In this document: positions 620-19,677 of the stretch, piece by piece
Position numbering within the stretch: position 1 is the first letter of the stretch
Layout of the letters: each line of letters opens with the position of its first letter
Source of the DNA: a virus
Strand: one strand, 5' to 3'
Length of the DNA stretch: 64,000 nt
Virus record (IMG/VR): IMGVR_UViG_3300042562_000747
Location: 1-64,000 of that record
Notes under the pieces: model-generated
Databases searched by the model: none
Seen by the model: the letters and a program-made list of their open reading frames with translations, nothing else
Told to the model about the DNA's origin: nothing
Position numbers and translations under genes: made by a program

Positions 620-1257
620 TATTTTTTCAATCTAATCTTCCAATATACACCACCACCAACATAAGGTGCTAAAGTGCCAGTTGTACCATCAATCGTTCTA
701 TTTGCAACACCAACTCCTAAATGATACATCTTATCCGATTTTGTATTGATTAAAAATCCCATACCTAAATGAGATATTAAATCTGCTTTATTAAATCCAC
801 CTTCTAAACCATAAAAGAATTTTGTTTTAGGTAATTCTTTTACAATTGTTGTTTCTTTAATAACTCTTTGTTTAACACTCGCATTAAAAGTTCTACCCAA
901 TATTTTGTTTTGAGTAATAGTATCAATTAAAGATACAATTCCTAAACTATCTGGTAATTGTAATGTATCTTTATAAATGTTCTTTGCAAAATAATTTTGT
1001 AATAAAGCTTGTGTATCTACGATTGTAGGGATTATTACTTCCTTAATTGTTTCATGATAGATATCTTCACCTTTTTTAGTTACTACTTTTGTTTTAACTA
1101 TTTCAAATGTATCAATTTCATGTTTAATAAGTTCATACTTTTTACCATCAACTTTTACGATTTCACCGGTTGTTTTTTTGTTTCCACCACATTGTTGGAA
1201 AACTACTACTGCAATTAATGCTACTATTGCAATATTCTTAATGTTCAAAAATTTCAT
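619..1257 (-). CDS. Membrane-anchored or lipoprotein-like protein of unknown function
   Basis: This 212-aa protein has a hydrophobic N-terminal segment (about residues 8-20) ending in FQQCGGN. That could be a signal anchor or a poor lipobox with Cys23. The middle is charged and Thr/Val rich. The C-terminal 70 residues alternate Gly and aromatic residues (YGLEGGF, GVGVANR, YVGGGVYW), like outer-membrane beta strands. It sits directly before terL. It has one of the few strong Shine-Dalgarno sequences in the window (1265-1271). Similar Bacteroidota-phage proteins are, from memory, annotated as DUF6808-like. A role at the host envelope, for example a spanin-like lysis protein, is a guess. Confidence 0.8.
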   Translation of the reverse strand: MKFLNIKNIAIVALIAVVVFQQCGGNKKTTGEIVKVDGKKYELIKHEIDTFEIVKTKVVTKKGEDIYHETIKEVIIPTIVDTQALLQNYFAKNIYKDTLQLPDSLGIVSLIDTITQNKILGRTFNASVKQRVIKETTIVKELPKTKFFYGLEGGFNKADLISHLGMGFLINTKSDKMYHLGVGVANRTIDGTTGTLAPYVGGGVYWKIRLKK

Positions 1258-1900
1258 TATATTTCTCCTTTATTATTTCCCAATCCTCATCTACTGCGGT
1301 TTGGAATGTTATTATTAATTCGTTTAGACCCGCTATATCTGAATCTAAATCTCTTTTTACTTTTTCAATATCACCATCGATACTCCACTTTTCAATACTA
1401 CCATCTTCGTTTACAATAGTAGGAACTGTGTCTGCATCTTTTCTAGCTTGTTCAAATTTTGCTAAATCATCTTTAATTGTTCCTAATGCTTTTGAGTTCA
1501 TTTTCCAATATTCATAGTTCTGATAGATACCTTCTAATTTAAGTTTAGCTTCTCTTTCTACTAAACAATTAATACAAAATCCACTTTGTTTAATAAATCT
1601 TAAGTTAACTCCTTTTGGATTTGATGTTTTGCATTCTTTAGATTTACAAGTAGTTAGTATATCTAAATACGCTCTTGCTTCATCATATTGGGTAACTGAA
1701 CTTTTAAATCCTTCATGTTGTTCCCATTCTTTTCCGTTTGCATCAAACCAAGTATCACCAACTTCTCTTTTTTCTTTTACCTTATCCCACCCAACTGTTG
1801 CGTTTCCACTTTCTCTACCATGCATCACATCCAATATCTTTTTTCTACTCGGATGCATCCATGTCTTCTTATCCTTATTACCTTTGCTCTTAATTAACAT
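1238..1900 (-). CDS. Cys-cluster (zinc-ribbon-like) protein of unknown function
   Basis: This 220-aa protein is strongly charged. Two Cys pairs in its centre, CKSKEC and CINC about 25 residues apart, could form a structural zinc site. The N-terminal part has WMHPSRKK and a Trp/Glu-rich stretch (GDTWFDANGKEWEQHEG). The C-terminal half is predicted helical, with Glu/Lys/Asp repeats. It lies between the giant multi-enzyme gene and the envelope-protein/terL pair, and its 3' end overlaps the next gene by 20 bases. A small-terminase or virion-assembly role is possible from position alone. I do not recognise the family. Confidence 0.8.
   Translation of the reverse strand: MLIKSKGNKDKKTWMHPSRKKILDVMHGRESGNATVGWDKVKEKREVGDTWFDANGKEWEQHEGFKSSVTQYDEARAYLDILTTCKSKECKTSNPKGVNLRFIKQSGFCINCLVEREAKLKLEGIYQNYEYWKMNSKALGTIKDDLAKFEQARKDADTVPTIVNEDGSIEKWSIDGDIEKVKRDLDSDIAGLNELIITFQTAVDEDWEIIKEKYNEIFEH
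1265..1271 (-). promoter_or_regulatory. Strong Shine-Dalgarno sequence
   Basis: The minus strand reads AAAGGAG seven bases before the ATG at 1257, inside the 3' end of the upstream gene. Most other genes here have only A/T-rich leaders, so this site stands out and fixes the start of the membrane-anchored protein. Confidence 0.7.
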
Positions 1901-1931: not shown

Positions 1932-4900
1932 TTATCGGCTAAACTTAAAAATTCCTAAAATTTGGTTCAAAGGTGCGAATGCTCCCGTTAATTTATAAGC
2001 GTTTCCTTTGTAACTAAATACGATTCCTTCACTCGGTACAATTTTTTCAAACCCACCAATTGCATTTAATCTACTCAATTCTTTTTCTAATTTTTTTATT
2101 TGAGATATTGTTCCACCACTCATAATTTGATTAGCACTAGATTCTAATTCAGCTCTCATTGATTGTAATGCTTTATCTGGTTGTGCAGTTAATACTGAAC
2201 TCATAAATGATAAAACCTCTGCACCAACTCCTAAAAATATATCTTCAAACTTTCTAAGATTACCACTCATAATAGTAGTTTTAGCTCCTTTATCTATTCC
2301 TTCTGCCCATGCTCTTGCTTTATCATCTTTGATATCACCTACTCTCATACTTTTATCATCAAACGCCCATCTCTTAACTAAACCTGCCTTTTCTAATGCT
2401 GATATTTTCTTTTTTGAATTAACTATAAAGTTTTCCCACCACGCTTGATGATAATCTGCTACACCATCTTTATCTGTTAATCCAAATTCAGATTGTAGTT
2501 TTGAAATCATTCCTTTAAATTTACCTTTTTGAGAACTTAATTGTTTTGTTTTAGGTAATTTAACAATTGGAGGTCCTTGTATTGTGTATTTAGATTGAAC
2601 ATGTGCATTAATTTGCTTTAACATACCACCTAATATACTTTCTGCACCATCTACTTTACCAATTGGATTTCCTGCTTCATTGTATTCAACTGCATTATGG
2701 AAAACTAAAAGTGCTTGATTGTAAGGAATAACATTAACCGATGTAGGCCATATTACTTCTAAATTTACAAACACTTTACCTTCTTTAAATATTTTATCTT
2801 TTTGTGCCTGAGATAATCCTCTAATTGCATTTTCCAAATCTTTCATTGCGAAATTATATGCATCAGTTAATCCGCCTCTACCGCCAAACTTAGTTGCTAC
2901 ACCATTGATATCCATTGCATTTGCTCCAGCGTTTGCTAAGTGCCCTTTATTTCTAGCTGATATTAATCTACCACTCTTCCAACTTATTGCCAATGCTTGT
3001 CCGTCAGTCTTTTCTCTAACCACACCTAAGTTTCCATCTAATGCATTATTTACAATTGCTTTCAAATCACCAAATGATAAATTCATTCTAACATCAAATG
3101 GATGATTCATATGTCCATATGCACCACCTTCATTTATAATACCTTCTTCTACTTTTCTGAATGTTGTTGCTTGTCTACCATTGATTGTTGGCATTCCGTG
3201 CTGGTCTTTACTAATATCCTTTACAACTGTTTTTTTATTTTTAAATTTACCAGTTAAAACCACATCACCTTTATCTACATCTACATTGATATCTTCATCT
3301 ACTTCGGTAATTACTTCTGCAACGGTATTTGTATCACCATCTAATTTACCATCCTCTTTATCTCTATTGTAATCTTGTATAGCGTTATCCCAAACTTCTA
3401 ATGGAATTTTACCATCTTTCATTTGTTTAGCATAATGTAGTGTAAACCATTCAACATATTTATCATTATCACCATCCATTTCTTTTCCTGCAAATAGTGC
3501 GGCTTTACCAATTCCACCGATTGCAATTTCTGCAACCAAATGTTCTGCTAAATGTACTCCCAAATGTTTCATTAACATTCCAACCCCATGTCCTATTCCG
3601 CCACCTAATATTACACCCGCTGCACTCATTGCAATCGTTTTACCTAATGTTTTGAATGCATCTTTTTCTTTATCACTTATTGGTTTACCTTGAAATAAAT
3701 TTGAAATACCTTCACCTGCGTGCTTAAATGTATGTCCCAAATGTTCCATTTCCTTTTTTACGGATGGTACAATTGATTTTATTTTATTATTGATTGCTTC
3801 ACCGATACTACGTCTAACTGGTGAATTTGGTTTATGTTGGTTGCCTCTAAAGAATTTTTTCTCATTCTCAGACCATTTTGAAATATTATGTTTGATGGTT
3901 CTTGCTACAACTTCTGGATTTTGAATTGCCTTAGTTGCTACTTTACCCATACCAGCCGATTTTGCTGCGGTTGTTCCTTTGGTTGGTTGCATTCCACTTG
4001 CAGGTGTTTCTTTATTTGCATCTGAACCAGGTCCTGCTTCTTGTCCAGATTTGGTGGCCACACCATATTCATTTGCAAAATCATTTGCTGACTGAATTGC
4101 GGTATCAATATCCTGGTCAACAATCATTACTTTTAATGGAATTGGTGCTTCTGGATGTTTTATATTATATGATGTAATTGCTGCCCATCTATGGTGTCCA
4201 TCAATTACATATCCATCTTTACTTACATAAAGCGGCGCAGTTAGATTTGGATTTGTTGGGTCTGCTTCTAATCCCGCTTCCATTCCTAATACTTTATCAC
4301 CAACTAATTCTGTTTGAGTTGCTTTTAATGATTCTGCAGGTACTTCTGTATTTGTTACTTTAATACCCTTATCTTCCAACATTTTTGCATATAGTTTTTC
4401 ACCATTTATTTCTTCCGCATCCGGTTTTGCTTTACCTGCTTTTTTTTCTGCTTCTAAATCTTTTTCAGCTTGTGAACCAGGTTGTGGCTTACCTTTGAAT
4501 TGTGGCATTTTTTTACGAGGAATTCCTTTATTTCCATTACAATATAAGTTAGTACCTGGAACAGATATGTCGCAAAGATTATATGTGGGTTCTCTTTCTG
4601 AATCTACTTCTTTTTTAAAGTCTTCCATTTCTTCTGGTTTAACTTCATCTTTTGATTTTAAACCTCTACGTTCTAATACTTTTTGAGTTGCTTGTTTTTT
4701 ATCTTCATCAAAATGTTTTGCTAAACCTGTAATTTTTGTATTTACTTCTTCTCTAAATTTAGGTGAAATATCATCTAATGTAGGCTCTACTTTAATTGAT
4801 GTGCCTACCACATTTCCCTTATCATCAACCGGAGCCGTTTGATTCATCGGAGCTGGTTTCTTTTGTTGTGGTTGTGGTTGCTGTGGTTTTTCTTGAGCTT

Positions 4901-6089
4901 GTGCAGGATTAGTTAATGGTTTATCTAATGGTTTTTGTGTTTTGTTTGTACTATTTGTACCATTTTGATTATTTGCGCCAGGTGTTGGTTTTGCTCCAAC
5001 TTTATTATTTGCACCCGTCATTGGTCCGCCGGCATTTCTATTTGCGGGTGGTTGTGATTGTGCACCACTTTTACCAACTAATGCCATCGCTGCTCTATAC
5101 GATGGATGGTTTTTATCGTAATTTAGTGCTGAACGAACTTTTACTTTCTCACCAGTATCAGGATTATCTACTAATTGGTCTAATGTTTTTTCATCATACC
5201 CACTACCTGCTGCACTTGCTTCTTTTATTGGATTATGTGGTTGATACATACCTTTTTCTATATTATGTAAATCACGATAATATGTAAGTTTTTCTGCTAA
5301 ATGGTCTTTAGCTATTTCAGCTGCGATTTTAATATCAGACGTATGTTCTAATTCAATCTTAATACCTCGTTTTAGTTCTTGTTTTACGGTATCTAATACG
5401 TTTTTGTAATCGTAGTAATCCCCTGCCCATTTCTTTGCAATATCTACCAACGTTAAATCATCTGCTTTTCCACCTGGTATATTATTATCAGTATCTATAC
5501 CTTCATTTAATTTTGTAATTAATTTAGTATAAATTGCTTTATCAAATTTACCAAAAAACTTTTCAAATTCTTTTTGTTTTCTTTCACCACCCATTCTATT
5601 GTTACGGAACATATTTCTAACATCCGTTGCACCAAATGAATTAGAAGGTAACTGAGAGAATACATATGCGTTAACTGCATATCCTTTTAAGTTTTTATCG
5701 TTTGTATATGGTTTGAAATAATTACCACCTAATCTTGCATCATCTTTTTCACCAACTGCTACAATTAATGCAGTAGTTGTATCATCATATCCTCTCAATA
5801 TTTCTACCGGTTGATATGGTTGTTTTACTTTTACAAATTTTGAAGATGGTATTCCAAATAATTTAGTTGCAATTTCTTTCTTATCGTTGAATGATAATGG
5901 GGATTTATCACCATCTTGCACATCGGATGTTGCAATATATACATTTTTAGAACCAAATTTTGATACCAATGCATCATAAACTTTTTTATGACCTTTGTGA
6001 AATGGTTGGAAACGTCCACCATACACTACAATTTTGTCGGTTACCGCTTGTTTTAAAACAGCTTCGACAATAAAATTAGCTAATTCCAT
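1932..6089 (-). CDS. Giant multi-domain protein: NMN-adenylyltransferase-like + DUF5661-like + ParB-like + ligase-like nucleotidyltransferase
   Basis: The protein has 1385 residues. Residues 20-165 form a cytidylyltransferase/NMNAT-like domain with GGRFQPFHKGH (24-34) and a late TDVRNMFR motif. Residues 240-285 (GIKIELEHTSDIKIAAEIA) resemble DUF5661. A Pro/Gln/Asn-rich linker spans about 343-425. A ParB/sulfiredoxin-like core is seen at VIDGHHRWAA (628-637). A Gly-rich hydrophobic stretch follows at about 818-868. The last 390 residues carry the covalent nucleotidyltransferase motifs of ATP-dependent ligases: I, EKTDG with Lys1027; III, VNLEVIW (about 1108-1114); IV, EGIVF (1354-1358); V, YKLTG with Lys1366. 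Whether it acts in the cell or is packaged in the virion is unknown. It is the first of the three genes just upstream of terL. Confidence 0.85.
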   Translation of the reverse strand: MELANFIVEAVLKQAVTDKIVVYGGRFQPFHKGHKKVYDALVSKFGSKNVYIATSDVQDGDKSPLSFNDKKEIATKLFGIPSSKFVKVKQPYQPVEILRGYDDTTTALIVAVGEKDDARLGGNYFKPYTNDKNLKGYAVNAYVFSQLPSNSFGATDVRNMFRNNRMGGERKQKEFEKFFGKFDKAIYTKLITKLNEGIDTDNNIPGGKADDLTLVDIAKKWAGDYYDYKNVLDTVKQELKRGIKIELEHTSDIKIAAEIAKDHLAEKLTYYRDLHNIEKGMYQPHNPIKEASAAGSGYDEKTLDQLVDNPDTGEKVKVRSALNYDKNHPSYRAAMALVGKSGAQSQPPANRNAGGPMTGANNKVGAKPTPGANNQNGTNSTNKTQKPLDKPLTNPAQAQEKPQQPQPQQKKPAPMNQTAPVDDKGNVVGTSIKVEPTLDDISPKFREEVNTKITGLAKHFDEDKKQATQKVLERRGLKSKDEVKPEEMEDFKKEVDSEREPTYNLCDISVPGTNLYCNGNKGIPRKKMPQFKGKPQPGSQAEKDLEAEKKAGKAKPDAEEINGEKLYAKMLEDKGIKVTNTEVPAESLKATQTELVGDKVLGMEAGLEADPTNPNLTAPLYVSKDGYVIDGHHRWAAITSYNIKHPEAPIPLKVMIVDQDIDTAIQSANDFANEYGVATKSGQEAGPGSDANKETPASGMQPTKGTTAAKSAGMGKVATKAIQNPEVVARTIKHNISKWSENEKKFFRGNQHKPNSPVRRSIGEAINNKIKSIVPSVKKEMEHLGHTFKHAGEGISNLFQGKPISDKEKDAFKTLGKTIAMSAAGVILGGGIGHGVGMLMKHLGVHLAEHLVAEIAIGGIGKAALFAGKEMDGDNDKYVEWFTLHYAKQMKDGKIPLEVWDNAIQDYNRDKEDGKLDGDTNTVAEVITEVDEDINVDVDKGDVVLTGKFKNKKTVVKDISKDQHGMPTINGRQATTFRKVEEGIINEGGAYGHMNHPFDVRMNLSFGDLKAIVNNALDGNLGVVREKTDGQALAISWKSGRLISARNKGHLANAGANAMDINGVATKFGGRGGLTDAYNFAMKDLENAIRGLSQAQKDKIFKEGKVFVNLEVIWPTSVNVIPYNQALLVFHNAVEYNEAGNPIGKVDGAESILGGMLKQINAHVQSKYTIQGPPIVKLPKTKQLSSQKGKFKGMISKLQSEFGLTDKDGVADYHQAWWENFIVNSKKKISALEKAGLVKRWAFDDKSMRVGDIKDDKARAWAEGIDKGAKTTIMSGNLRKFEDIFLGVGAEVLSFMSSVLTAQPDKALQSMRAELESSANQIMSGGTISQIKKLEKELSRLNAIGGFEKIVPSEGIVFSYKGNAYKLTGAFAPLNQILGIFKFSR

Positions 6090-6104: not shown

Positions 6105-6224
6105 CTAAATATTGTTATAGATAAATGGGTCTCTCTTTCTTAGCTCTTTTATTTTCTTTTTAAACTCTCTCTTTAATTTCCAAGTTTTGTATAAACTTTT
6201 CAATTTTTTAAATAATGTTATCAT
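6105..6224 (-). CDS. Small basic 39-aa protein
   Basis: I found this by reading the gap between the giant gene and the GT10-like gene. ATG at 6224-6222 opens 39 codons ending in TAG at 6107-6105. The peptide begins MITLFKKLKSLYKTWKL, has a Lys/Arg-rich helix (REFKKKIKELRKRDPF) and ends FIYNNI. It overlaps the end of the upstream gene by 17 bases, in keeping with the packing around it, and would fill an otherwise empty 118-base gap. Short, highly basic peptides ending in DPFIY-type sequences are, from memory, common in T4-like marine phages. Function unknown. An untranslated spacer is the alternative. Confidence 0.55.
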   Translation of the reverse strand: MITLFKKLKSLYKTWKLKREFKKKIKELRKRDPFIYNNI

Positions 6225-7539
6225 TTTTATGTATTTTTAATTCTTTAAATATATCCGAGTACCTATAATTATTGTGTTTTATTTTTTCAATTAAGTATTT
6301 TTCAACTTGGTTGTTCTTACCAATATCAATCATTAGTTGATGATTATGTTTTAAAATATGAAAATTATCTTTTATTATATCATCTATTTCATATATGCTT
6401 AATTTGTTTAATCTATCTATTTCATTTATAATTACATCCATTCTAATATCATTGTCTTCAATTGTGTCGTATGTTTCATCTATTAAAAAATCAAATGTTT
6501 TAAACCCAATTTCTTTTAAATATTTTAACATATGTGGTCTACCAATAACAATAAATGGATGGTATTGAAATATTGGTTTCCATATTTTTTCTGATATAAA
6601 ATCATTATCAATATAAAATGAAGTTTCCGTTACCAAACTAATATAACTTTCTAAAAATAAATTTTCATTTTCATGATAATATCCATTTGTATTTGCAATA
6701 TCCTCTCTATCTGCAATTGATTTAGCCGGCAGTGCTTCAAATTTTTCTTTTAAATCCGAATGTTTTTTATAGAAATTAGATAATTCATTTGTTACTAATG
6801 TTTTATCAAATGATATAATAGAATCGTATTGTATTTTATTAAAAATTTCAGATAATAGTTTTACTCTATGTAAATCTAATCGCCTATTTAAACATAAAAA
6901 CTTAAATGGTTTTTGTAATTTATAATGTGTATTATATAAATCTTTATTAATATGTTTATTGAAAAAATGTTTTGAAGATGCGGTTAAATAAAATGAATAG
7001 TTAATTACCGATGGATATTCTGTTATATTAAATCTTTCTTTAAACGAAAGTAATTTTTGTTCTAAGTTATAATCATTTAAAATTAAAATTACATTTTCAA
7101 ATTTAATCCCCGCGTTTTTAATGCCTAAATACATTCCTTTTAATAACCAATCACCTACCCATCCTTCATGTGAATAATTTATAACAATTTTACCTTTGTT
7201 CTGATTTACTTTTTTTATTATATTAGATGGTATTAAATCAAAGAAATTACAAAAGTCATCCGTTGCTTCTATGTTTAAAGAATACATCAAATGCCCCCAT
7301 GGTTCTATCGGATATACCCAATTTTCAGATTCAATATTATCAGTAATTTCTAATTTAATATCTTTTATACCAAGATTACTAATCCAACTACTATGTTGAT
7401 TTCCAAATTTATTTTCTAATTCGAATGAATCAATTAGTCTATCTGTAACAAATATATGACTTAATATTTCTGGTTTTATACAATTTGGAATTGGTTTATT
7501 AAATTTCCACTTATCGTATAATAAAACAATATTATCCAT
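6208..7539 (-). CDS. Putative glycosyltransferase, GT10-like (paralogue 1 of 3)
   Basis: This 443-aa protein has a C-terminal block shared with two other cassette genes (14193-15464 and 15461-16951): a FLCLNRR basic segment (about residues 213-219), then SLVTETSF, ISEKIWKPI, HPFIVIGRP and a KEIGFKTFD tail. The ET...SEKIW pattern resembles the nucleotide-sugar-binding region of alpha-1,3-fucosyltransferases (GT10), where FENS...TEKLW occurs. The N-terminal half, presumably the acceptor side, differs from the paralogues. It follows the SGNH gene with an 8-base overlap. Transferase assignment is moderate; donor and acceptor are unknown. Confidence 0.65.
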   Translation of the reverse strand: MDNIVLLYDKWKFNKPIPNCIKPEILSHIFVTDRLIDSFELENKFGNQHSSWISNLGIKDIKLEITDNIESENWVYPIEPWGHLMYSLNIEATDDFCNFFDLIPSNIIKKVNQNKGKIVINYSHEGWVGDWLLKGMYLGIKNAGIKFENVILILNDYNLEQKLLSFKERFNITEYPSVINYSFYLTASSKHFFNKHINKDLYNTHYKLQKPFKFLCLNRRLDLHRVKLLSEIFNKIQYDSIISFDKTLVTNELSNFYKKHSDLKEKFEALPAKSIADREDIANTNGYYHENENLFLESYISLVTETSFYIDNDFISEKIWKPIFQYHPFIVIGRPHMLKYLKEIGFKTFDFLIDETYDTIEDNDIRMDVIINEIDRLNKLSIYEIDDIIKDNFHILKHNHQLMIDIGKNNQVEKYLIEKIKHNNYRYSDIFKELKIHKNDNII

Positions 7540-8434
7540 TAATTTCTTTTAAAATATAATCACTAATACTATTTGCAATTATTTTATGACACTCTAATGA
7601 AGCGTGGTCATCAGGTACTTTATTACCATTTATTCTTAAATCAGATGTACTAATCATCATTTGTGGGTCTGATTTCATTAAATCTGCTAATGAATTATAT
7701 TCTATTGCATTATTATACATTTTAATATAAATCTTATTAAAAAATTCATCTTCAATTAAAAATGGTACATATTCATTTTGCCAAGTTAAAATTCTACATT
7801 TTATACCTGCTGCTTCGTATTTTATAAATAATTCTTTAATTAGATTTAAATTTTGTTGTATAAAAAACTTTTCCATATCTTCCCAACTTGTAAAATTATC
7901 AGAATAGAATTTAAATAATTTTTCATATGTGTCAGATTGTATTTTTCCATCAAACATATTAATATTATTTTGATGTAAATTATGTCTATCTCTAACACCC
8001 GCTACATTTAATTCCATTTGCTCATCATTTATATAAACTTGATAGTTCCTAAATGGGTCAGTAAGTTGCAGTATTACATAACCAATTTCATCTGCGGAAT
8101 AATGTTGGTCTGCGAATTTTTTATAATGTTTTTTAGATAATGCGTTTGTATCTGTTTCATTTTCTAAATCTATTATATATTCTAACCATGTAATAGAACC
8201 ATCATCCGAACCACCATTATCTATTTTATTAACTTCCCATGTTCCTAATTTATCTGCAACCAATCTACTAAAACGATTTGCACTCATAAATTTATACATA
8301 GCTTGTGTAATTTTATGTGAATCCGTTGTATTATTTGCTACCGCATTTTTAATATCAATAAATGGTGTATAAAAATATAAACCACTTCCCCAAGTATGAG
8401 AACATCCAGTAAATGCAATTCCTTTATTAAGCAT
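7532..8434 (-). CDS. SGNH/GDSL-like hydrolase (paralogue 1 of 3)
   Basis: This 300-aa protein begins with a block-I motif, FTGCSHTWGSG (residues 8-18), in which the Ser would be the nucleophile; Cys replaces the usual Asp of GDS. NGGSDDGS could supply the block II/III Gly and Asn-like oxyanion residues. DDHASLECHK near the C terminus carries the Asp/His pair typical of block V. SGNH enzymes in sugar clusters commonly act as O-acetyl transferases or esterases. It is closely similar in plan to the gene at 8933-9826, from which it is separated by the small TPP-enzyme gene. An O-acyl modification of the phage glycan is inferred. Confidence 0.7.
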   Translation of the reverse strand: MLNKGIAFTGCSHTWGSGLYFYTPFIDIKNAVANNTTDSHKITQAMYKFMSANRFSRLVADKLGTWEVNKIDNGGSDDGSITWLEYIIDLENETDTNALSKKHYKKFADQHYSADEIGYVILQLTDPFRNYQVYINDEQMELNVAGVRDRHNLHQNNINMFDGKIQSDTYEKLFKFYSDNFTSWEDMEKFFIQQNLNLIKELFIKYEAAGIKCRILTWQNEYVPFLIEDEFFNKIYIKMYNNAIEYNSLADLMKSDPQMMISTSDLRINGNKVPDDHASLECHKIIANSISDYILKEING

Positions 8435-8972
8435 AATATAACTCCGGATATTCTACTAATATATGAATACCACCTTCATTTGTTGCATATTTGTAAGCTA
8501 ATTCAATATCTTCCGGTGATTTTAAATCGTGAAATTCTATATTTTTACATAAAGATTTAAATTCCTCAAAATAATTTCCTCTATGTTGGTGACCTGGATC
8601 AATTGGTTTATCACTCCCTTTACCTAATCTAATAATTAAGTTCGGTTTCCACTTTTCTTGACTCATTATTCCAATTTTATCAACGTGATTTATTAATTGG
8701 TTTGCTGCACAAATAATAAAATCCCAACGAGGATAGAATGTAATAACTCTTTTACCTGCCATTGCCAACCCTAAACTCATTCCCATTTGTGATTCTTCCA
8801 TTACAGGAACTTCAATCATTTTTTCTTTTGGAACAAATCCTAAAGTTGTACTCATAGGATTACCTTGATAAACTATTTGTTGACCAATAAAAACAGAATC
8901 TTCTAATTCTGCTAAATTTTTCATTGCTTCCGTTAGAGCATCTTTGTACGGGGTGTATTCTGGGTTTGCCAT
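8427..8972 (-). CDS. E1-beta/transketolase-type TPP pyrimidine-binding domain protein (minimal)
   Basis: This 181-aa protein matches the N-terminal domain of 2-oxoacid dehydrogenase E1 beta subunits. The start PYKDALTEAMKNLAE corresponds to the usual YREAL...A opening. VPVMEESQMGMSLGLAMAG (about 55-73) holds the conserved cofactor-activating Glu (probably Glu59). FYPRWDF...ANQLINHVDKIG follows as in E1 beta. The C-terminal transketolase_C domain is missing: 181 residues against about 325. The matching alpha half lies 8 kb away at 16951-17586. No E2 or E3 genes are seen, so I infer a non-oxidative acyl or aldehyde transfer on a sugar precursor rather than acyl-CoA formation. Confidence 0.85.
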   Translation of the reverse strand: MANPEYTPYKDALTEAMKNLAELEDSVFIGQQIVYQGNPMSTTLGFVPKEKMIEVPVMEESQMGMSLGLAMAGKRVITFYPRWDFIICAANQLINHVDKIGIMSQEKWKPNLIIRLGKGSDKPIDPGHQHRGNYFEEFKSLCKNIEFHDLKSPEDIELAYKYATNEGGIHILVEYPELYYA

Positions 8973-9826
8973 ATAACTTGTTTTTCTATTTCTTCTATTT
9001 TATTAATAATTGCTTCTGCCTGTATTTTATGTGCCTTCAATGATGTATGACCATTTATTACTTTTTTTCCAATAGTTGTAAAATACGGGTCATCTGAAAT
9101 ACTCATACCTATCGGTCTATCTTTTCTACTTTGTAAATCCCATATTGAACTAAATATATTTCCATTCACATTGTATTCTATAAATCTATCTTCTAAAAAT
9201 GAATTATTCTTAATGTATGGTATTAATTCGTTTTGCCAAGTGTGTATTAAACATTTTTTTACACCCATAGATTCATATTTTCTAAACTTTTCCTCTACCA
9301 TTTTTGCAAATTCATCTAAAAAAACGTGTGTATATTTTTTTATATCACCATCATATATTTCTTCTAAATATTTATCAAATTCACTATTTTTTATAGATTG
9401 TACCGAATTAATATTACATTTTCTTACTACACCGTTATAAGTAAATTCAGTTTCTGCTCTAAACATATCAGTAAGTTGAACTACTACATAATCAAAATCT
9501 TCTAATTCCATTCTAAACATTCTATGTGCTACCGGACTTGAATTTGCTGGTACATAATTTAGTTGCCATTGTGTATTTAATGTATCTAAGAAAATAAAAA
9601 TTTGATTGTTATCACCACCATTACTATCTCTACAATATTCAAATGTTTCAAAATGTGTAGCAACTTGTCTTGCAAATCTTTTTGATTTAATAAATTCTAC
9701 ATGAGCAGGCGTATAATCTTCTCTGTAATGCTGAGTTGCATTCCATTTAATATTAGGGAGGTGAGAGTAATATTGTAATCCCTCACCCCATGTAAAACTA
9801 TCACCTGCAAATAGAATTCCTTTCAT
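8933..9826 (-). CDS. SGNH/GDSL-like hydrolase (paralogue 2 of 3)
   Basis: This 297-aa protein has a canonical block I, FAGDSFTWGEG (residues 6-16, Ser nucleophile). DSNGGDNNQIF holds the Gly/Asn blocks, and NGHTSLKAHK near the C terminus carries the block V His. VQLTDMFRAE and IHTWQNELIPYI are nearly repeated in the paralogue at 7532-8434 (LQLTDPFRNY, LTWQNEYVPFL), showing a recent common origin. The start overlaps the stop of the upstream epimerase gene (TAATG), while its 3' end overlaps the E1-beta gene by 40 bases. Esterase or O-acyltransferase activity is inferred from the family. Confidence 0.75.
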   Translation of the reverse strand: MKGILFAGDSFTWGEGLQYYSHLPNIKWNATQHYREDYTPAHVEFIKSKRFARQVATHFETFEYCRDSNGGDNNQIFIFLDTLNTQWQLNYVPANSSPVAHRMFRMELEDFDYVVVQLTDMFRAETEFTYNGVVRKCNINSVQSIKNSEFDKYLEEIYDGDIKKYTHVFLDEFAKMVEEKFRKYESMGVKKCLIHTWQNELIPYIKNNSFLEDRFIEYNVNGNIFSSIWDLQSRKDRPIGMSISDDPYFTTIGKKVINGHTSLKAHKIQAEAIINKIEEIEKQVIWQTQNTPRTKML

Positions 9827-10803
9827 TAGTTTTGAAATTCTGATTTATTTTCTAAATACCATTCATACGCATTAGCTAATCCATCTTCTAACGATGTACT
9901 TGCTTGCCATCCTAAGTTATCAAAAATCTTAAATGAATCAATCTTACGAGTTGGAATCATTGATGGTTTACCTTTAATAAATTCAGTTGGTGCATCAAAG
10001 TTTGCAATTCTTTTCATTATTTCTAATACTTCTAATACGGAATACACTCTATTAGAACCTACATTATAAACTTGATAATCTTCTTTTTCTTTTTCCATTA
10101 CTATTTGCAATGCTTCTACGAAATCTTCGATATATAATAAATCTCTCAATTCACTACCATCACCCCATACAGGAATTGGATTCATTTGGTCTGCTACTTT
10201 TCTAATTGTTGCCGGAGTAACATGACACTTATTGAAATCGTATTTATCATGTGGACCAAATAAATTAGCTGGTCTGATAATTGTACATTTCATTTTAACC
10301 GGTAAATACTTTGCGTATAATTCACATTGAACTTCTGCATATCTTTTCATCCAACCCACAGGAAAGTAAACAGGATATGGTTCATCAAATAGGAAATCAG
10401 TCTCTACTACGGGCTTATCTCCTTTTGGTGGATAAACTGTATTAGATGATAAGAAGATGTAATGTTGAACCTTATTTCTCCAACTGGCATCAATTAAGAA
10501 ATTGTTCATTGCTACGTTTGGTGTAACATGTGCCAATGGGTCAACTACGGTGTCTACTGCGTTTGATGTACTTGCTGCTGCGTGATATACTACATCAATT
10601 CCTTTGGTTGCATCTAAACACCCTTCGTATGTTTTTAAATCAAAATGAACATACTCTACACCATCAATTGGTGTTCGTACTCCTCTTTTGTGTAAATTAA
10701 CTCTAATGTTTGTGTAACCTTCTTTGTGTAATCGGTTTGTTAAATTTTGACCTACTAAGCCAGAACCACCTGTTATCAGGATTTTTGAATCTTTGTTTAT
10801 CAT
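9826..10803 (-). CDS. NAD-dependent epimerase/reductase (extended SDR, GDP-fucose-synthase-like)
   Basis: This 325-aa protein has the Rossmann motif ITGGSGLVGQNL (about residues 9-20), HAAAST, a catalytic-Ser segment LSSNTVYPP, RPANLFGPHDKYD and WGDGSELRDLLYIEDF. The last resembles the WGxG(s/t)xxRDFxYV(D/E)D region of sugar epimerases and GDP-L-fucose synthases. At the YxxxK position the sequence reads YFPVGWMKRYAE, so Val rather than Tyr stands four residues before the Lys. Either catalysis differs or the Tyr is supplied from a shifted position. The gene lies 1 base after the oxygenase gene. Role: nucleotide-sugar conversion, substrate unknown. Confidence 0.85.
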   Translation of the reverse strand: MINKDSKILITGGSGLVGQNLTNRLHKEGYTNIRVNLHKRGVRTPIDGVEYVHFDLKTYEGCLDATKGIDVVYHAAASTSNAVDTVVDPLAHVTPNVAMNNFLIDASWRNKVQHYIFLSSNTVYPPKGDKPVVETDFLFDEPYPVYFPVGWMKRYAEVQCELYAKYLPVKMKCTIIRPANLFGPHDKYDFNKCHVTPATIRKVADQMNPIPVWGDGSELRDLLYIEDFVEALQIVMEKEKEDYQVYNVGSNRVYSVLEVLEIMKRIANFDAPTEFIKGKPSMIPTRKIDSFKIFDNLGWQASTSLEDGLANAYEWYLENKSEFQN

Positions 10804-10804
10804 A

Positions 10805-11461
10805 TTATTTTTTTGAGTTCATTATAAAACTTATTAATGCTTTTCTTTCAAAATTTGGATTTGTTATTGGGTTTACCTCATGTTCTAAATTTGCATTGGT
10901 AAAATCTAATACAACAAAGTTACCAAATTCCGGTGTAATTTCCAATTTATTTCCATCAAAATCTGTAATTATTAGTTCTCCCCCATCTCCTTTTTTCCAA
11001 TCTTTATTCAAATATAGTAATACTACACATATTCTAAATTTATCATCATCTTCACCATCTTTATGATTTTTAATAAAACAATCTTTATTATATAAAGTTA
11101 AATTAAAAGATGGGTTTCCAAATACATAATGATTTCTAGGATATAATTCTTGTAATTTTGAATAACAATATTTAGAAATTAATTCACAATCTGCATGTCC
11201 ATTGTATAAATGTTCAAACCAAATTTGTGCTAAGTCATTGTGTTTTTCAATAACCGATTGTTTATATTTGTTTTGACTTTCAAAATCATTAGATGGAACG
11301 ATTCTTACATTGTGTACTTCTTTTAACGAATATACAATTTGGTATTCAAATTCTTTATAATCTATAATTTTAGTTAAATATTGATTAAGTAATAATTCGT
11401 ATGATTTACCAAAAAATTCTAAACCTAAACCAGCATAATATCCTTTACCTGTATATAACAT
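10805..11461 (-). CDS. 2-oxoglutarate/Fe(II)-dependent oxygenase (prolyl-4-hydroxylase-like)
   Basis: This 218-aa protein has a C-terminal double-stranded beta-helix signature. Iron ligands are NHKDGED (His-x-Asp) and LEHEVNPI (distal His), and the 2-oxoglutarate-binding Arg lies in FERKALISF. Between them GDGGELIITDFDG and FGNFVVLDFTNAN are typical of P4H-type oxygenases. The N-terminal half begins with a hydrophobic-aromatic stretch (MLYTGKGYYAGLGLEFFG). It is one base away from a second oxygenase (11462-12184), which shares the core but little else. Target could be a sugar, protein side chain or small molecule; the sequence does not decide. Confidence 0.85.
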   Translation of the reverse strand: MLYTGKGYYAGLGLEFFGKSYELLLNQYLTKIIDYKEFEYQIVYSLKEVHNVRIVPSNDFESQNKYKQSVIEKHNDLAQIWFEHLYNGHADCELISKYCYSKLQELYPRNHYVFGNPSFNLTLYNKDCFIKNHKDGEDDDKFRICVVLLYLNKDWKKGDGGELIITDFDGNKLEITPEFGNFVVLDFTNANLEHEVNPITNPNFERKALISFIMNSKK

Positions 11462-12184
11462 TTATTTATTTTTTAGTACAACGAAATTTAAATATGCAAA
11501 CCTATTAAACTCATTCATTACTTTATGTACCGAATGTACTGGCATACTTTTTGTAAAATCTAATACACCATAGTTTCCTAATATTGGATATACAATATCA
11601 ATATGTTCTTCTTTATTTTTTAATACCAATTCACCACCATCACCTACATTATATTCACTTAATGGAGTTAAATATATTAAACAGGCACATAGCCTATCAT
11701 TTACATATCCATCATTATGCATTGTAATAAAATCACTATCAGTATACCAAGTTATTTGACCTACACTTTGTATATCGGTTGCAGTAATATTTAATTCATA
11801 ATGTTTATTTATAATACCCGCACATACTTTGTCCATTATAGGATAAAATACTTTATTAAAATAATCGTTTCCCAATCCAATTCTTTCTGCTAATTCACCA
11901 CACCTTTGATGCACCATTTTATTTTGTTGGTGAGCGTGGTATCGTATATCATTACTTCCATCAACAAACTCTTTTATTTCTTTAAAAGTTTCTTCATCAT
12001 AATATCCACTATCGGTGTGCTTTGGATGCGGATTCATAGAAGAATACAAATAAGTAACTAAATCTTTATTATCTTTATATTGTATTAATATATTATAAAA
12101 AGATTTAATTGTTTCAATTTCACTTTCATTTAAAAAATCCCATATTGTTCCTATTGCGTATTCGGTATTCTGAATCTGTAACAT
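11462..12184 (-). CDS. 2-oxoglutarate/Fe(II)-dependent oxygenase
   Basis: This 240-aa protein has iron-binding MHNDGYVND (His-x-Asp), a distal His in PVHSVHKV, and the co-substrate Arg in FNRFAYLNF. VGDGGELVL and YGVLDFTKS match the oxygenase at 10805-11461 (GDGGELII, VVLDFTNA), so the two probably arose by duplication and diverged. The start overlaps the stop of the upstream coiled-coil gene (TAATG). Hydroxylation of a cassette product or virion protein is possible; no direct evidence of substrate. Confidence 0.85.
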   Translation of the reverse strand: MLQIQNTEYAIGTIWDFLNESEIETIKSFYNILIQYKDNKDLVTYLYSSMNPHPKHTDSGYYDEETFKEIKEFVDGSNDIRYHAHQQNKMVHQRCGELAERIGLGNDYFNKVFYPIMDKVCAGIINKHYELNITATDIQSVGQITWYTDSDFITMHNDGYVNDRLCACLIYLTPLSEYNVGDGGELVLKNKEEHIDIVYPILGNYGVLDFTKSMPVHSVHKVMNEFNRFAYLNFVVLKNK

Positions 12185-12582
12185 TATATTAGGTTTTTTG
12201 GTTTTTTATTTAATAAATTTGATTCCTCTATTGCCATTTCTTCTGCCAAATCAAATCTTATTTTATTTAATCTTGTTCTATCAATATCTAATTGTTTTTC
12301 AATTGAAATAAATTCGTTTTTTAATCTTTCAATTTCTAAATTTTTAGCATCTTTTATTTCTTTATTTAATTTTGCTAATTCCTTTCCCACATTTGCTCTT
12401 GCTTCATTTATCCTATTTCTTTCTATTGCTATATTTTCTTTTTCATGTTCAATATCTTTCCATTCATAGTATATTTTACTACGCTCCAACATAATCTTTT
12501 CTCTTTCATCTGCGATTATTTGCTTTTGCTTTTCTAAATATTCCATTTCTTTATTTATTTCTTTTTCAGATATCACTCGCAT
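12184..12582 (-). CDS. Coiled-coil protein (short paralogue)
   Basis: This 132-aa protein is almost entirely predicted alpha-helical coiled coil, rich in Glu, Lys, Ile and Arg. Its first 50 residues (MRVISEKEINKEMEYLEKQK...ERSKIYYEW) align with those of the next gene upstream (MKVISQTELDKEQLYLEKQK...ERSRLYYEW), and its end (DRTRLNKIRFDLAEEMAIEE) repeats a motif found there several times. It looks like a shortened duplicate. No enzyme motif is seen. A scaffold or oligomerisation partner for cassette enzymes is a guess. Confidence 0.75.
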   Translation of the reverse strand: MRVISEKEINKEMEYLEKQKQIIADEREKIMLERSKIYYEWKDIEHEKENIAIERNRINEARANVGKELAKLNKEIKDAKNLEIERLKNEFISIEKQLDIDRTRLNKIRFDLAEEMAIEESNLLNKKPKNLI

Positions 12583-12597
12583 ACTATAATTATTAAC

Positions 12598-13281
12598 TTA
12601 TATAATTTGTTTTGATTTTTTATAAATATTTAATTTAGCAGTTCCTATTGCAATCTCCTCAGCTATTTCGGCTCTAATTTTATCTAATCGATTTCTATCC
12701 TCAGTTAGTTGTGATTCCAATTCATTTTCCTTTTGTTTTCTAATAAAAATTATATGATTTTCTAATTCCAGTTCCAATTCTGTTTTTATTATAGAATGTG
12801 CAGTATTAATATCATTGTATATTTCATTTCGAATTGTATCTAATCGTTTTCTATCTTTTACTAATTGTTTTTCTAATTCTGATTCTTGTTCTTTTATAAT
12901 TTTTTTATGTTTATCTGTAATTTCTTTTTCTAATTTTTTTGTTATCGTTTCAAATCGTTTCCTGTCATTTGCTAATTGTATGTCAAATTCTTTTTCTTGT
13001 TTTTTTCTTTGTTCACCAATTTCATTTGCCCAAAAATCTTCTTTTGCTTTTTTATTTAATTCATGTCTTTTATTCATTTCATCAATTAAAATAACATTAG
13101 ATTCATTTAGATTTTCTCTTATTTTTTTATATTCTTCATCCAATTCCTGCAAATCTCGCCATTCATAGTATAACCTACTACGTTCAATCATTAATCTCTC
13201 ACGTTCTTCTGAAATTATTTGCTTTTGTTTTTCTAAATATAATTGTTCTTTATCTAGTTCTGTTTGAGATATAACTTTCAT
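12598..13281 (-). CDS. Coiled-coil protein with internal repeats (long paralogue)
   Basis: This 227-aa helical protein contains three or four copies of a 30-40 residue unit of the form ELExQLxxDRxRLDxIRxEI: LANDRKRFETI, LVKDRKRLDTIRNEI and LTEDRNRLDKIRAEI. The N-terminal block is shared with the 132-aa neighbour, supporting the chosen start at 13281, although it overlaps the epimerase gene by 32 bases. The repeats explain the length difference between the two paralogues. No known family; structural or tethering function inferred. Confidence 0.75.
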   Translation of the reverse strand: MKVISQTELDKEQLYLEKQKQIISEERERLMIERSRLYYEWRDLQELDEEYKKIRENLNESNVILIDEMNKRHELNKKAKEDFWANEIGEQRKKQEKEFDIQLANDRKRFETITKKLEKEITDKHKKIIKEQESELEKQLVKDRKRLDTIRNEIYNDINTAHSIIKTELELELENHIIFIRKQKENELESQLTEDRNRLDKIRAEIAEEIAIGTAKLNIYKKSKQII

Positions 13282-14188
13282 ATGTCAATTTTAAAGCTTC
13301 ATTGAATCCCAATACTGGCAATAATCCTATTTCTTTTTGTAGTGTTGTGTCCATTTGTCTACGAAGGTCACCATTTGGTTTTGTAGTGTCCCATTTTATA
13401 TCTATATTTTTACCACTAATTTTAATAAGTTGTTCAATCATTGATTTGATTGTAATTTCTTCACCTGCACCAAAGTTAATTGTAGTATGTATTTGTTTTT
13501 CATATAAAGATAAAATTGCATTTGCTACATCACCTGCATAAACAAAATCTCTAATTGGTGTTCCATCCCCCCATGCTTCAATTTCATTTTCTGCTTCAAA
13601 TACTTTTTTACATTGAGTTGCAATTACTGTTCCTGTTCCATCAAAGTTATCATACTCACCAAAAATGTTTGCTGGTCTTATGATTGCCCAATTTGTATAA
13701 TTGTATTGAACTTTGTATGCTTCTAATAAAACCTCACCCATTCTCTTACTCCAACTTGGAAACCAATCTGCGTCTGATGGTAATGTTTTCCATACACTAT
13801 CTTCTACAAATGTTTCTGCGGGTGCATATACACCAACTGAACTAACAAATACTAACCAAATATTATTTTTTGAACATTGATTAATAATTTCAGTATTAAT
13901 TTTAAATGATGGATATAAAAAATCCACCGGACTTTCCTTTGCTCTAATAGGAGAACCTTTAACACCAAAACAATTGAATACTGCATCAGGAGTTTCATAA
14001 AAGAAAAGATTTTTAACATTATCTTCTATTGTTAAATCCATTTCATAAAATGTAAATTTTTCAGATATTGGTAAATTTGGTGATTGTCTCATATCAACAC
14101 CAATTACTTCATATCCTGCTACTAAACATTTTTTAACTAAATGTATTCCAACTAATCCACTACAACCTGTTACTAAAACTTTTTTCAT
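13250..14188 (-). CDS. NAD-dependent epimerase/dehydratase (extended SDR)
   Basis: This 312-aa protein has the Rossmann motif VTGCSGLVGIHLVKK (about residues 5-19), Asp36 of VIGVDMR as an NAD-selecting acidic residue, FVSSVGVYAP with the catalytic-Ser region, RPANIFGEYDNFD, and WGDGTPIRDFVYAGDV. The YxxxK site reads DWFPSWSKRMGE: the Lys is present but Pro stands where Tyr is expected, echoing the change seen in the 9826-10803 epimerase. The product probably works on a nucleotide sugar. The upstream leader is A-rich without a Shine-Dalgarno sequence. Confidence 0.85.
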   Translation of the reverse strand: MKKVLVTGCSGLVGIHLVKKCLVAGYEVIGVDMRQSPNLPISEKFTFYEMDLTIEDNVKNLFFYETPDAVFNCFGVKGSPIRAKESPVDFLYPSFKINTEIINQCSKNNIWLVFVSSVGVYAPAETFVEDSVWKTLPSDADWFPSWSKRMGEVLLEAYKVQYNYTNWAIIRPANIFGEYDNFDGTGTVIATQCKKVFEAENEIEAWGDGTPIRDFVYAGDVANAILSLYEKQIHTTINFGAGEEITIKSMIEQLIKISGKNIDIKWDTTKPNGDLRRQMDTTLQKEIGLLPVLGFNEALKLTYESYISNRTR

Positions 14189-14192
14189 ATTT

Positions 14193-15464
14193 TTATTTTA
14201 TTAATTTTGAATATACGTTATATAATTCCTCATCTTTTTGAAATGATAATAATAGTTTTTGATTTGCTTCTATTTTATCCATATCAAACGGTGGTAATTC
14301 ACCATTATCATCTATATACTTTAATAGTTTTCTAATTTCCTCAAATGTTTTTACTAATCGTAACCAAGGAAATTCTTCATTATTTAAGTAATCATAATTT
14401 ATAAATGGTGGAACATAGAATCCCATATCTTCTAATATTGTATTAGTATATCTTGGACCAATTACTATAAATGGATGACAATTTGCAATAGGTCTAATTA
14501 CTTTTTCTGAAATCATTATATCTCTTTCAAAAAATTTAGTTTCAGTAACAATAGATAATAAAGATTCTGCATATAAAAATGAATCGTTGTTCCAATTATG
14601 TAAAAGATTTTCTACATATCCAGGATCTGTTTTTTTAATATCTACCGAAATTTCACCTGGCTTTGGATTAGCTATATAATCATTTCTATATTCTTGTAAT
14701 TCGTTTATTCCCATTGTATTATATCCCAATACATGTTCATCTGGAAATTCTAAAAATGAAATATAATTATTATCTATTATATTTTCTTTTTTACAAAAAT
14801 TATAAAACCAAAATCTATGGTCTCTTTTTGCATTTCTATTAAACGATAATATTGTTTTTAATTTAGGAGTAGTTTCGTATTGTTCTCGTTTACATACACT
14901 AAAAATACTATCATTCATTTTAAAATTATTATCCAAATCATATGTTAAGAATGGAAAGAAAATATGATTACCTTTTGCAAAATCATTTATATTATAACAG
15001 GGTGTTATTGTGTAAATGTTTTCAGAATGTTTGGATGTATTAATCCAATTATAGAATTTTTTATAATGACCTGATTCGTGAAAACTGATAAATAATATTT
15101 TAATACCCTTTTCTAAAATAGTAGTATAATGTGGTAAATATTCTTCCAAATCTTCCATATGTACTTTTGGAGTAACTAAATAAAAATTTTCATCTGCCCC
15201 ATCTAATATTGGTTGGTCAGAAAATACTATTTTTAAATCTTTATGTTCAAATGTTTTTGCATATTTTTTAGTTCCCCAATGACTTCTTAAAAATATTTCA
15301 TTATAACTAGATTGTATTTCACTATCCCTAAGAATATCTAAAATACCAATATAATTGTTTGTAACAGTTCTATCTTCTGGTATTTTGTAATTAAATACAC
15401 CATTCGGTAACGGGAGATAATCATCACCCGTCCAATTTTCCATATAAAAATTTATCAATTTCAT
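14193..15464 (-). CDS. Putative glycosyltransferase, GT10-like (paralogue 2 of 3)
   Basis: This 423-aa protein shares with the other two paralogues the C-terminal block SIVTETKFFERD, ISEKVIRPIANCHPFIVIGP, and LEDMGFYVPPF. Upstream is a basic FNRNAKRDHRFW segment, matched by FNRSVFKDHRFW in the neighbouring paralogue. The N-terminal opening (MKLINFYMENWTG) is unrelated. The start overlaps the next gene by 4 bases (ATGA), so this and 15461-16951 are probably translated in series. The donor sugar cannot be deduced. Confidence 0.65.
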   Translation of the reverse strand: MKLINFYMENWTGDDYLPLPNGVFNYKIPEDRTVTNNYIGILDILRDSEIQSSYNEIFLRSHWGTKKYAKTFEHKDLKIVFSDQPILDGADENFYLVTPKVHMEDLEEYLPHYTTILEKGIKILFISFHESGHYKKFYNWINTSKHSENIYTITPCYNINDFAKGNHIFFPFLTYDLDNNFKMNDSIFSVCKREQYETTPKLKTILSFNRNAKRDHRFWFYNFCKKENIIDNNYISFLEFPDEHVLGYNTMGINELQEYRNDYIANPKPGEISVDIKKTDPGYVENLLHNWNNDSFLYAESLLSIVTETKFFERDIMISEKVIRPIANCHPFIVIGPRYTNTILEDMGFYVPPFINYDYLNNEEFPWLRLVKTFEEIRKLLKYIDDNGELPPFDMDKIEANQKLLLSFQKDEELYNVYSKLIK

Positions 15465-16951
15465 TTGCTAAAAATAGATGAATATAATTTTTTTACCGAT
15501 TGTTCACCCGAATAAGTTTTACATAGATTTGAATTATGTATAACTTCTTCTTTTGAATCCATAAATATCTTGTGTAATTTTTTCTTATCGTTTAGTTCCG
15601 TAGTTAGTTTAACCACTGCTTTCATTCTATCACCATGATCAAAAATCTTATCATAACTTTCATCAAAATATTTATCAAATGTTTTGAATCCTTTTTCTTT
15701 TAACATTTCTAAATACAATGGGCCGGCTAATGCTATAAATGGATGAAAATATCGTAATGCCTTTACTCCTTTTTCAGAAACTTGACATGCGGTGAATGAT
15801 GACTCAGTTAATAGTGTCATATATGTTCTTAAAAACGAAGGGTCAAATGATGGATTTACCCAATCTATCCAACCATAGTGAACTCTACGTCCATTTGCAT
15901 AATATGTACTATCTTCAAATGTATCAATGTTATCAATTTTAACAACACCAATATCTTTTATTTTTTGCATCCATCCCATATTATCATTAAATTCTTTTAA
16001 TTTAGTGAATGCCGGAAACCCTCTATAACCATCTGTTCCCCAATCTATTTCTCTATCATATGGAAATATCATAGAATATAAACAATCTTTTAATACATCA
16101 TTTTTTTCTAATTGTGATAAATACCAAAATCTATGGTCTTTAAATACTGAACGATTAAACATTAAAAAATTCTTTTCTCTCTCACCTTCAAAATTCAATA
16201 CATCACCATCATACGGATTATTTGAATATGCACTACACGCCGTTGAAAATAAATAATCAACAAAATAACAATTCATTTTTATTGTAATGTTATTTTTCAT
16301 ACAATACAATTCATGTTGTAAATTTACATTTGAATCTGCATTTGAGTAATGAATATTATCTGGACTTATACCAAATTCTTTACATGAGTTATATAATTTT
16401 TCAAAAAAAGATTCGTAGTGAACACCACCTTCGTGAAATGTAGAAATTATTAATTTTAAATCACCTAATTGAATTGCCCTTAATATTTCAGGATTTAAAT
16501 TTAATAAATGTTTACCGGATGCTTTGTATTCAACAATATCTTTAACTGTTATAGATGGTGATTGAAATAAAAAATCTTCGTTTCCAAATAAATTAATTGG
16601 ATAATAATTTCGTTCCCCACTTTTTATTCTATTGAATGGTAATACATTTAATTCATATGCATTATTTTCATATTCAAATGTATATGTATTTTCATCTAAT
16701 TTAGTAAAACTTTCTAAAATATTTTCTCTAATAGTTCTTGTATAAAAAATATTAAAAAGAATATCTTTATGTTCTGATGATAGATTGATTACGTTATGAT
16801 GGTCAGTAAATCCTCTACCAAAAAATTCTGATGTAGATATACCTCGTAATTCTATTTGTTGTAATGTACTATGATAAGCGGCTTCGGTTAACCCGTTTGG
16901 AAATATAACACCATCTTTTTCATATTCGTATATAAAGTTGATTTTTTCCAT
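15461..16951 (-). CDS. Putative glycosyltransferase, GT10-like (paralogue 3 of 3)
   Basis: This 496-aa protein uses the ATG at 16951, which overlaps the TAA of the upstream E1-alpha gene (TAATG); an in-frame ATG five codons earlier is also possible. It has HEGGVHYESFF in the middle, FNRSVFKDHRFWYL, then TLLTESSF, VSEKGVKALRYFHPFIALAGP and KEKGFKTFDKYFDESYD, as in the 6208-7539 paralogue (KEIGFKTFD...DETYD). An earlier HEGWVGDWL in that paralogue matches HEGGVHYES here. It is the longest of the three, with an added N-terminal domain of about 150 residues. Confidence 0.65.
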   Translation of the reverse strand: MEKINFIYEYEKDGVIFPNGLTEAAYHSTLQQIELRGISTSEFFGRGFTDHHNVINLSSEHKDILFNIFYTRTIRENILESFTKLDENTYTFEYENNAYELNVLPFNRIKSGERNYYPINLFGNEDFLFQSPSITVKDIVEYKASGKHLLNLNPEILRAIQLGDLKLIISTFHEGGVHYESFFEKLYNSCKEFGISPDNIHYSNADSNVNLQHELYCMKNNITIKMNCYFVDYLFSTACSAYSNNPYDGDVLNFEGEREKNFLMFNRSVFKDHRFWYLSQLEKNDVLKDCLYSMIFPYDREIDWGTDGYRGFPAFTKLKEFNDNMGWMQKIKDIGVVKIDNIDTFEDSTYYANGRRVHYGWIDWVNPSFDPSFLRTYMTLLTESSFTACQVSEKGVKALRYFHPFIALAGPLYLEMLKEKGFKTFDKYFDESYDKIFDHGDRMKAVVKLTTELNDKKKLHKIFMDSKEEVIHNSNLCKTYSGEQSVKKLYSSIFSK

Positions 16952-18119: not shown

Positions 18120-18125
18120 ATAACT

Positions 18126-19676: not shown

Positions 19677-19677
19677 A

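Follow-up and report, generated by a model that had tools for sequence, protein, structure and literature searches.

A T4-type phage polyprotein with NMNAT-like and RNA-ligase-fold ends, probably targeted to the head and cut by the head protease

Why should a phage string together, in one chain of 1385 amino acids (aa), domains that resemble an NMNAT, a DUF5661 protein, a ParB protein and a nucleic-acid ligase? The chain is encoded by an open reading frame (ORF) at 1932..6089 of what we call the window, the 64,000 nucleotides at positions 1 to 64,000 of the virus record IMGVR_UViG_3300042562_000747. The best explanation, in our view, is that it is an enzyme polyprotein of a T4-type phage, targeted to the head and cut there by the protease, and we put the probability of this at about 0.65. 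The initial annotation of the locus had called the four domains, and these calls stand: the motifs it quoted (GGRFQPFHKGH, GIKIELEHTSD, VIDGHHRWAA, EKTDG, VNLEVIW, EGIVF and YKLTG) are all found in the protein, and Pfam and PHROGs matches and a predicted ligase fold bear the calls out. What that reading missed were the constant ends, the interchangeable cargo in the middle, and the head-protease sites that separate the pieces. The layout is as follows, with putative cuts marked by a slash.

1932..6089, minus strand: the whole polyprotein ORF, 1385 aa, with an ATG start and free of internal stops
6063..6089, minus strand: residues 1-9, MELANFIVE/A, an N-terminal peptide that resembles a capsid-targeting sequence and closes with an [IL]xE/A site
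5502..6062, minus strand: residues 10-196, the NMNAT/cytidylyltransferase-like domain (GRFQPFHKGH; GATDVR), ending at LNE/G
5220..5501, minus strand: residues 197-290, the piece containing DUF5661 (Pfam), ending at IKE/A
3798..5219, minus strand: residues 291-764, a linker and the ParB-like piece, ending at IGE/A
4056..4448, minus strand: the ParB-like domain itself, VIDGHHRW, matched by phrog_2859
3129..3797, minus strand: residues 765-987, a Gly-rich hydrophobic segment and a short conserved beta motif, ending at INE/GG
3156..3299, minus strand: that short motif, GKFKNKKxxVKxI...GMPTINGRxATTFR, common to the middle regions of many relatives
1935..3128, minus strand: residues 988-1385, the RNA-ligase-fold domain, in which K1027, D1029, R1046, E1111, E1354 and K1366 are invariant

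In 52 non-redundant complete proteins of this family, 619-1999 aa long, the N-terminal ~200 and the C-terminal ~400 residues are constant, and between them lie anywhere from 27 to 1403 aa. Conservation is higher at the C-terminal end, about 60% against about 45-50% for the N-terminal one. The family comes mostly from uncultured phages. A tblastn search of 50,697 deposited phage records found the C-terminal domain in only three (four others share the DUF5661 stretch only), whereas IMG/VR yields 110 relatives by whole protein and at least 529 by C-terminal alignment; a cultured carrier is Microcystis phage Mel-JY01. Where the two ends are not fused they can be neighbors: a phage of 462 kb encodes the C-terminal domain by itself, as 421 aa, and has the nucleotidyltransferase in the next gene, and on rumen contigs of 400 kb it is found fused or alone. 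Fusion and adjacency together argue for a joint function. A stand-alone ligase-like domain beside a gene carrying a nucleotidyltransferase has LNE/N and ILE/GG sites of its own. An apparent stand-alone C-terminal ORF in L114 was rejected, because the contig is frameshifted, and no further relatives turned up in a search with the LR756508 copy. Two of the rumen contigs (L323 and L324; 400-410 kb), which carry the ligase-fold domain with or without the NMNAT, were deposited within metagenome-assembled genomes (MAGs) of rumen Erysipelotrichaceae/Firmicutes; most likely, genomes of huge phages have been sorted into bacterial MAGs here.

The T4 head protease, gp21, cleaves after Glu in the sequence L/I-x-E, and some 10 N-terminal residues are enough to target a protein to the head (PMC9026906). 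In the window's protein, [IL]xE[GASN] occurs at residues 9, 196, 290, 764 and 987. The first of these falls in the N-terminal peptide and the second where the NMNAT domain ends; the third follows DUF5661, the fourth separates middle pieces, and the last immediately precedes the C-terminal domain. Among the ORFs of the window, this one alone has a site within 10 residues of its start. The last border is the most faithful: [IL]xE/GG stands just before the C-terminal domain in all 52 distinct homologues, 28 of which have another site shortly before it, and it is retained in each of the eight clusters that differ by more than 30% (8/8 at <70% identity). More divergent copies—L318, L319, L324 and L325—retain it too. 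Across the 52 proteins the N-terminal region holds 34 sites where 5.1 are expected, and the NMNAT core only one where 9.9 are expected. A site within the first 25 residues is present in 27/52 family members and in 55/524 flanking ORFs (p=7e-12). The capsid proteins of the same phages carry the same motif in their propeptides, at 9-11, ~35, ~52 and ~60, ending with LDE/A or similar near 60, as expected for the maturation of gp23.

Among 22 carriers of the polyprotein, a gp21-type protease is found in 20 and the T4-type major capsid protein, gp23, in 18. Wherever both the protease and the polyprotein gene were mapped (16/16 contigs), they share a strand, with gp21 6.6-11.3 kb downstream. Contig G017 (L002) encodes a protein identical to the window's (100% identity) and carries both gp21 and gp23. 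After the polyprotein gene comes a conserved gene of ~220 aa (window 1238..1900, minus; L114:9232-9945) whose product begins MHPSRKK or MHPTRRK and matches no PHROG.

If we interpret these facts correctly, events might run as follows. The N-terminal peptide would direct the polyprotein into the prohead, where a gp21-type protease would cut after Glu at [I/L]-x-E to free separate enzymes: the NMNAT-like adenylyltransferase, the cargo (here DUF5661 and ParB-like), and the C-terminal enzyme with the RNA-ligase fold. Packaged with the genome, these would enter the next host, and there the ligase and nucleotidyltransferase set would most likely repair RNA ends—those of transfer RNA (tRNA)—damaged by host nucleases, or else act on nucleotide or nicotinamide adenine dinucleotide (NAD) pools. 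A packaged enzyme was one of several roles listed at the outset, next to end repair and NAD-linked capping, and it is now the best supported of them.

What kinds of enzymes would be delivered? The N-terminal domain belongs, by its sequence, to the NMNAT/cytidylyltransferase family. Pfam CTP_transf_like matches residues 22-99 (24.1 bits against a cut-off of 21) and phrog_395, a cytidyltransferase, residues 18-194 (2e-8), and a profile of 34 such domains matches solved NMNATs in a PDB profile search (2qjt, 2.7e-7; MJ0541, 8.5e-7). Conserved are GRFQPFHxGH and (S/A)xTxVR; H31-x-G33-H34, T155 and R158 are invariant in all 34 sequences. Nicotinamide mononucleotide (NMN) is the likely substrate, in a superfamily whose members use several.

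The C-terminal domain was harder to place. Neither Pfam nor PHROGs has a model that matches residues 980-1385 above threshold, a PDB profile search returned only unrelated weak matches, and PF09414 (RNA_ligase) does not match the window's domain, although three divergent members touch it at motif I with 14.8-17.5 bits, below the cut-off of 27. The alignment of 41 homologues, with identities down to 25%, is more telling. It has 33 invariant columns, which include E-K-x-D-G, R-N, N-x-E, E-G and K-x-T-G, and in these motifs I (Lys1027), III (Glu1111), IV (Glu1354-Gly1355) and V (Lys1366) stand in order and are all invariant; the ligase motifs are thus not there by chance. Lys1027, proposed from the start as the motif I lysine, is position 48 of the modelled fragment. 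An AlphaFold (AF2) model from 28 close sequences reached a predicted local distance difference test score (pLDDT) of 77 and already placed ligases on top, at E 0.15 or worse and template-modelling (TM) scores of 0.14-0.17; with divergent relatives added, pLDDT rose to 87.6, at a predicted TM score of 0.86. Failure of residues 990-1385 to match a ligase fold would have refuted the initial reading; instead, the top 19 PDB fold matches were without exception RNA or nucleic-acid ligases, among them T4 Rnl1, Pab1020, a fungal tRNA ligase, T4 Rnl2 and a Naegleria enzyme. Viral models in BFVD gave the family itself, a cytidyltransferase-like protein of cyanophage S-PM2 (1.3e-4), and dozens of viral RNA ligases. 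It is very probable that the domain has a ligase fold with intact motifs; ligase-type catalysis would be a prediction from these. It is a distinct branch, set apart by a single lysine in motif V and a helical insertion of ~200 aa between motifs III and IV; a GGxxGHxxHPF block at its N-terminus is also unique to it.

Between the ends, the cargo changes from phage to phage. In the window's protein DUF5661 occupies residues 238-279 (30.5 bits, cut-off 27) and phrog_2859 residues 548-678 (1e-16), over the ParB-like stretch; Pfam gives no ParB match there, though VIDGHHRW is present. Among the middle regions of 50 relatives, DUF5661 is found in 16, PolyA_pol/tRNA nucleotidyltransferase in three and phrog_2159, 'ParB-like partition protein', in three, and there are also HD, GNAT and RegB-like endoribonuclease domains. 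The tRNA nucleotidyltransferase cargo lies in the same ORF as the polyprotein ends. The L044 protein has an HD domain (509-586) between its sites at 454 and 618, and a CCA-adding enzyme (640-885) between those at 618 and 973; in L325 a CCA-adding domain accompanies the NMNAT and ligase-fold domains, and in L319 an HD domain does so. As judged from these sequences, the cargo would favor a role in RNA (tRNA) repair, in line with the repair sets described for jumbo phages (PMC7824862). The contact with membrane or virion once suggested for the Gly-rich stretch is unsupported: the stretch sits in the variable middle and so provides no evidence for a contact common to the family. The motif GKFKNKKxxVKxIGKDxxGMPTINGKxAxTFR (window 3156..3299, minus) is also found N-terminally in L325, and in L321 it stands between the NMNAT and ligase-fold domains. 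On G008, the contig of L065, a separate ORF of 1139 aa has a PolyA_pol domain (79496-79849) and is perhaps a second cargo protein.

Several things weigh against this account. The [IL]xE motif is short, and the homologues share ancestry, which inflates the site statistics; there are only 5-8 clusters at 62-70% identity. Twenty-two sites fall inside C-terminal domains, where 44.5 are expected, and the middle regions are only modestly enriched (111 against 78; both counts from the 52 proteins). The last border is lost in L321 (LLM/GG), L323 (VME/GG) and L271, one of the divergent copies lacking the GG. Neither gp21 nor gp23 is present in the window's own record, which ends 1.9 kb past the gene on the side where relatives have them. 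As for the ligase, the PDB fold matches, taken one by one, are weak (E no better than 0.02, probability up to 0.60, low global TM), an hhalign alignment to T4 Rnl2 pairs EKTDG with EKIHG but scores within the range of shuffled profiles, and motif V reads K-x-T, not K-x-K, with one lysine instead of the usual two. CCA and HD cargo is confined to a few members and is not in the window. Packaging and cleavage, finally, are inferred, as are delivery, the substrates and the biological role.

A plainer idea is that the protein is an uncut, multidomain enzyme made and used in the infected cell, as a late-expressed factor that processes RNA or DNA ends, and is not packaged at all. The [IL]xE sequences would then be linkers or structural coincidences, the Glu before GG could well be structural, and the fused relative in S-PM2 does have no clear targeting peptide. 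We consider this unlikely, given the concentration of sites at the borders and N-terminus against their depletion inside the NMNAT core, the identical motif in the capsid propeptides, and the gene's position in the head module; and cyanophage nucleotidyltransferases have been detected in virions (PMC3037559, PMC10665884). Somewhat less likely still is a refinement of the head-targeting scheme, in which the C-terminal domain is an NAD+-dependent RNA ligase and the NMN it releases is re-adenylated by the partner NMNAT, the two forming a self-recharging sealing pair that is cut by the head protease and injected. It would explain why NMNAT and ligase-fold domains are always fused or adjacent, and the GGxxGHxxHPF block may stand in for an NMN-binding region.

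Emphasis can be shifted to the NMNAT instead, as a packaged factor that restores NAD+ against NAD-depleting host defenses, with the ligase-fold domain secondary or in the same pathway. The profile match is of the NMNAT type, and phage pathways of NAD+ reconstitution exist (PMC7824862, PMC12774641). But it is the C-terminal domain that is more conserved, with all its ligase catalytic residues kept, and the cargo includes tRNA-processing enzymes, and we regard this version as unlikely, about as much so as the sealing pair. The least probable, and by some way a poor prospect, is membership in the class of 'polyvalent proteins', injected multi-effector chains whose parts act together or are freed by a built-in peptidase. 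Several disparate domains in one chain, a ParB-like domain among them, recall that class, as does the packaging of P1 DdrB and DarA (PMC5512222). Pfam and PHROGs, however, show no embedded peptidase in the window's protein or in 50 middle regions, and bookend pairs with sites for an external protease are not described for polyvalent proteins (PMC5512222).

Elsewhere in the window, an ORF of 1048 aa (36499..39645, minus) matches SbcD-like (2-302) and SbcC-like (349-1047) PHROGs, and is an apparent fusion of the counterparts of T4 gp47 and gp46. Judged by eye from the translations, 6208..20000 (minus) is densely packed with ORFs resembling sugar epimerases, transketolases, dTDP-sugar epimerases, glycosyltransferases, 2-oxoglutarate (2OG) oxygenases and radical-SAM enzymes; together with a Nol-like carbamoyltransferase at 59180..60895, these are likely genes for surface-sugar modification.

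If the head-targeted polyprotein is real, T4-type phages can fill a single head with several enzymes in modular fashion: to be packaged and released, a domain would need only to lie between the constant ends with [I/L]-x-E on its flanks, and cargo could be predicted, testably, by reading protease sites. Membership in the family would identify hundreds of contigs from uncultured phages as carrying injected enzymes for RNA repair or nucleotide metabolism, a ligase fold would be suggested for DUF6267, a core family of cyanophages, and the whole may be relevant to the survival of phages in the face of tRNA-cutting or NAD-depleting defenses in the first minutes of infection.

How does this compare with systems already known? 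Cyanophages have one parallel. The S-PM2 protein fuses a DUF6267 domain (E 1.6e-111) to an NMNAT-like domain, and in P-HM1 DUF6267 (T4-GC71) and the cytidyltransferase (T4-GC190) are in adjacent genes; here, too, a ligase-fold-like domain (K-x-D-G, E-G-x-V) adjoins or is fused to an NMNAT-like domain. The order is reversed when fused, however, identity is about 12%, there is no cargo, and S-PM2 shows no clear targeting peptide. T4-GC190 was found in purified S-SM1 virions (PMC3037559) and a cytidylyltransferase in those of S-CREM2, possibly as a contaminant (PMC10665884); DUF6267 itself is not named in these reports. The S-PM2 protein (L327:43485-45260) and PF19782 have the motifs KWDGAP, EGFV and VKIVD, and a fold match in BFVD ties them to the C-terminal domain. 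That link suggests that DUF6267, too, is ligase-like in its modelled fold, and possibly an unrecognized ligase-like family; the PF19782 profile does not match the polyprotein's C-terminal domain, and hhalign aligns the two at motifs IV-V with a score of 21.6 (shuffled mean 16.6, maximum 23.0). The S-PM2 record, LN828717, contains an annotation slip: 'possible cytitidyltransferase' labels a motif-free ORF of 91 aa (L327:47014-47289), and the true cytidyltransferase-like protein, of 591 aa, is labelled hypothetical.

With the RNA ligases T4 Rnl1 and Rnl2 and archaeal Rnl3 (Pab1020), the C-terminal domain shares the order of motifs I, III, IV and V and the predicted fold; its long insertion, its GGxxGHxxHPF block and its lone motif V lysine separate it from them, and sequence similarity is under thresholds. 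The N-terminal domain resembles archaeal-type NMNATs and NadM-Nudix proteins (GRFQPFHxGH and SGTxVR motifs; PDB profile matches of 3e-7 to 9e-7) but is fused to a ligase-fold domain and has no Nudix. In the literature searched, constant enzyme ends, variable cargo and borders for an external protease were not found together. In its presumed way of working, the polyprotein resembles both polyvalent proteins and T4 internal proteins. The former (Iyer et al. 2017, PMC5512222) are multidomain, with variable effector-like cargo, a ParB-like domain and a proposed injection. The polyprotein differs in its constant NMNAT and ligase-fold ends, in having no embedded peptidase, and in its presumed reliance on the head protease. 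The internal and core proteins of T4, Alt and IPI-III, are likewise encoded by a phage with gp21 and gp23, and have a targeting-like N-terminal peptide and L/I-x-E sites; they are single effectors, whereas the polyprotein has several enzyme domains with sites in between.

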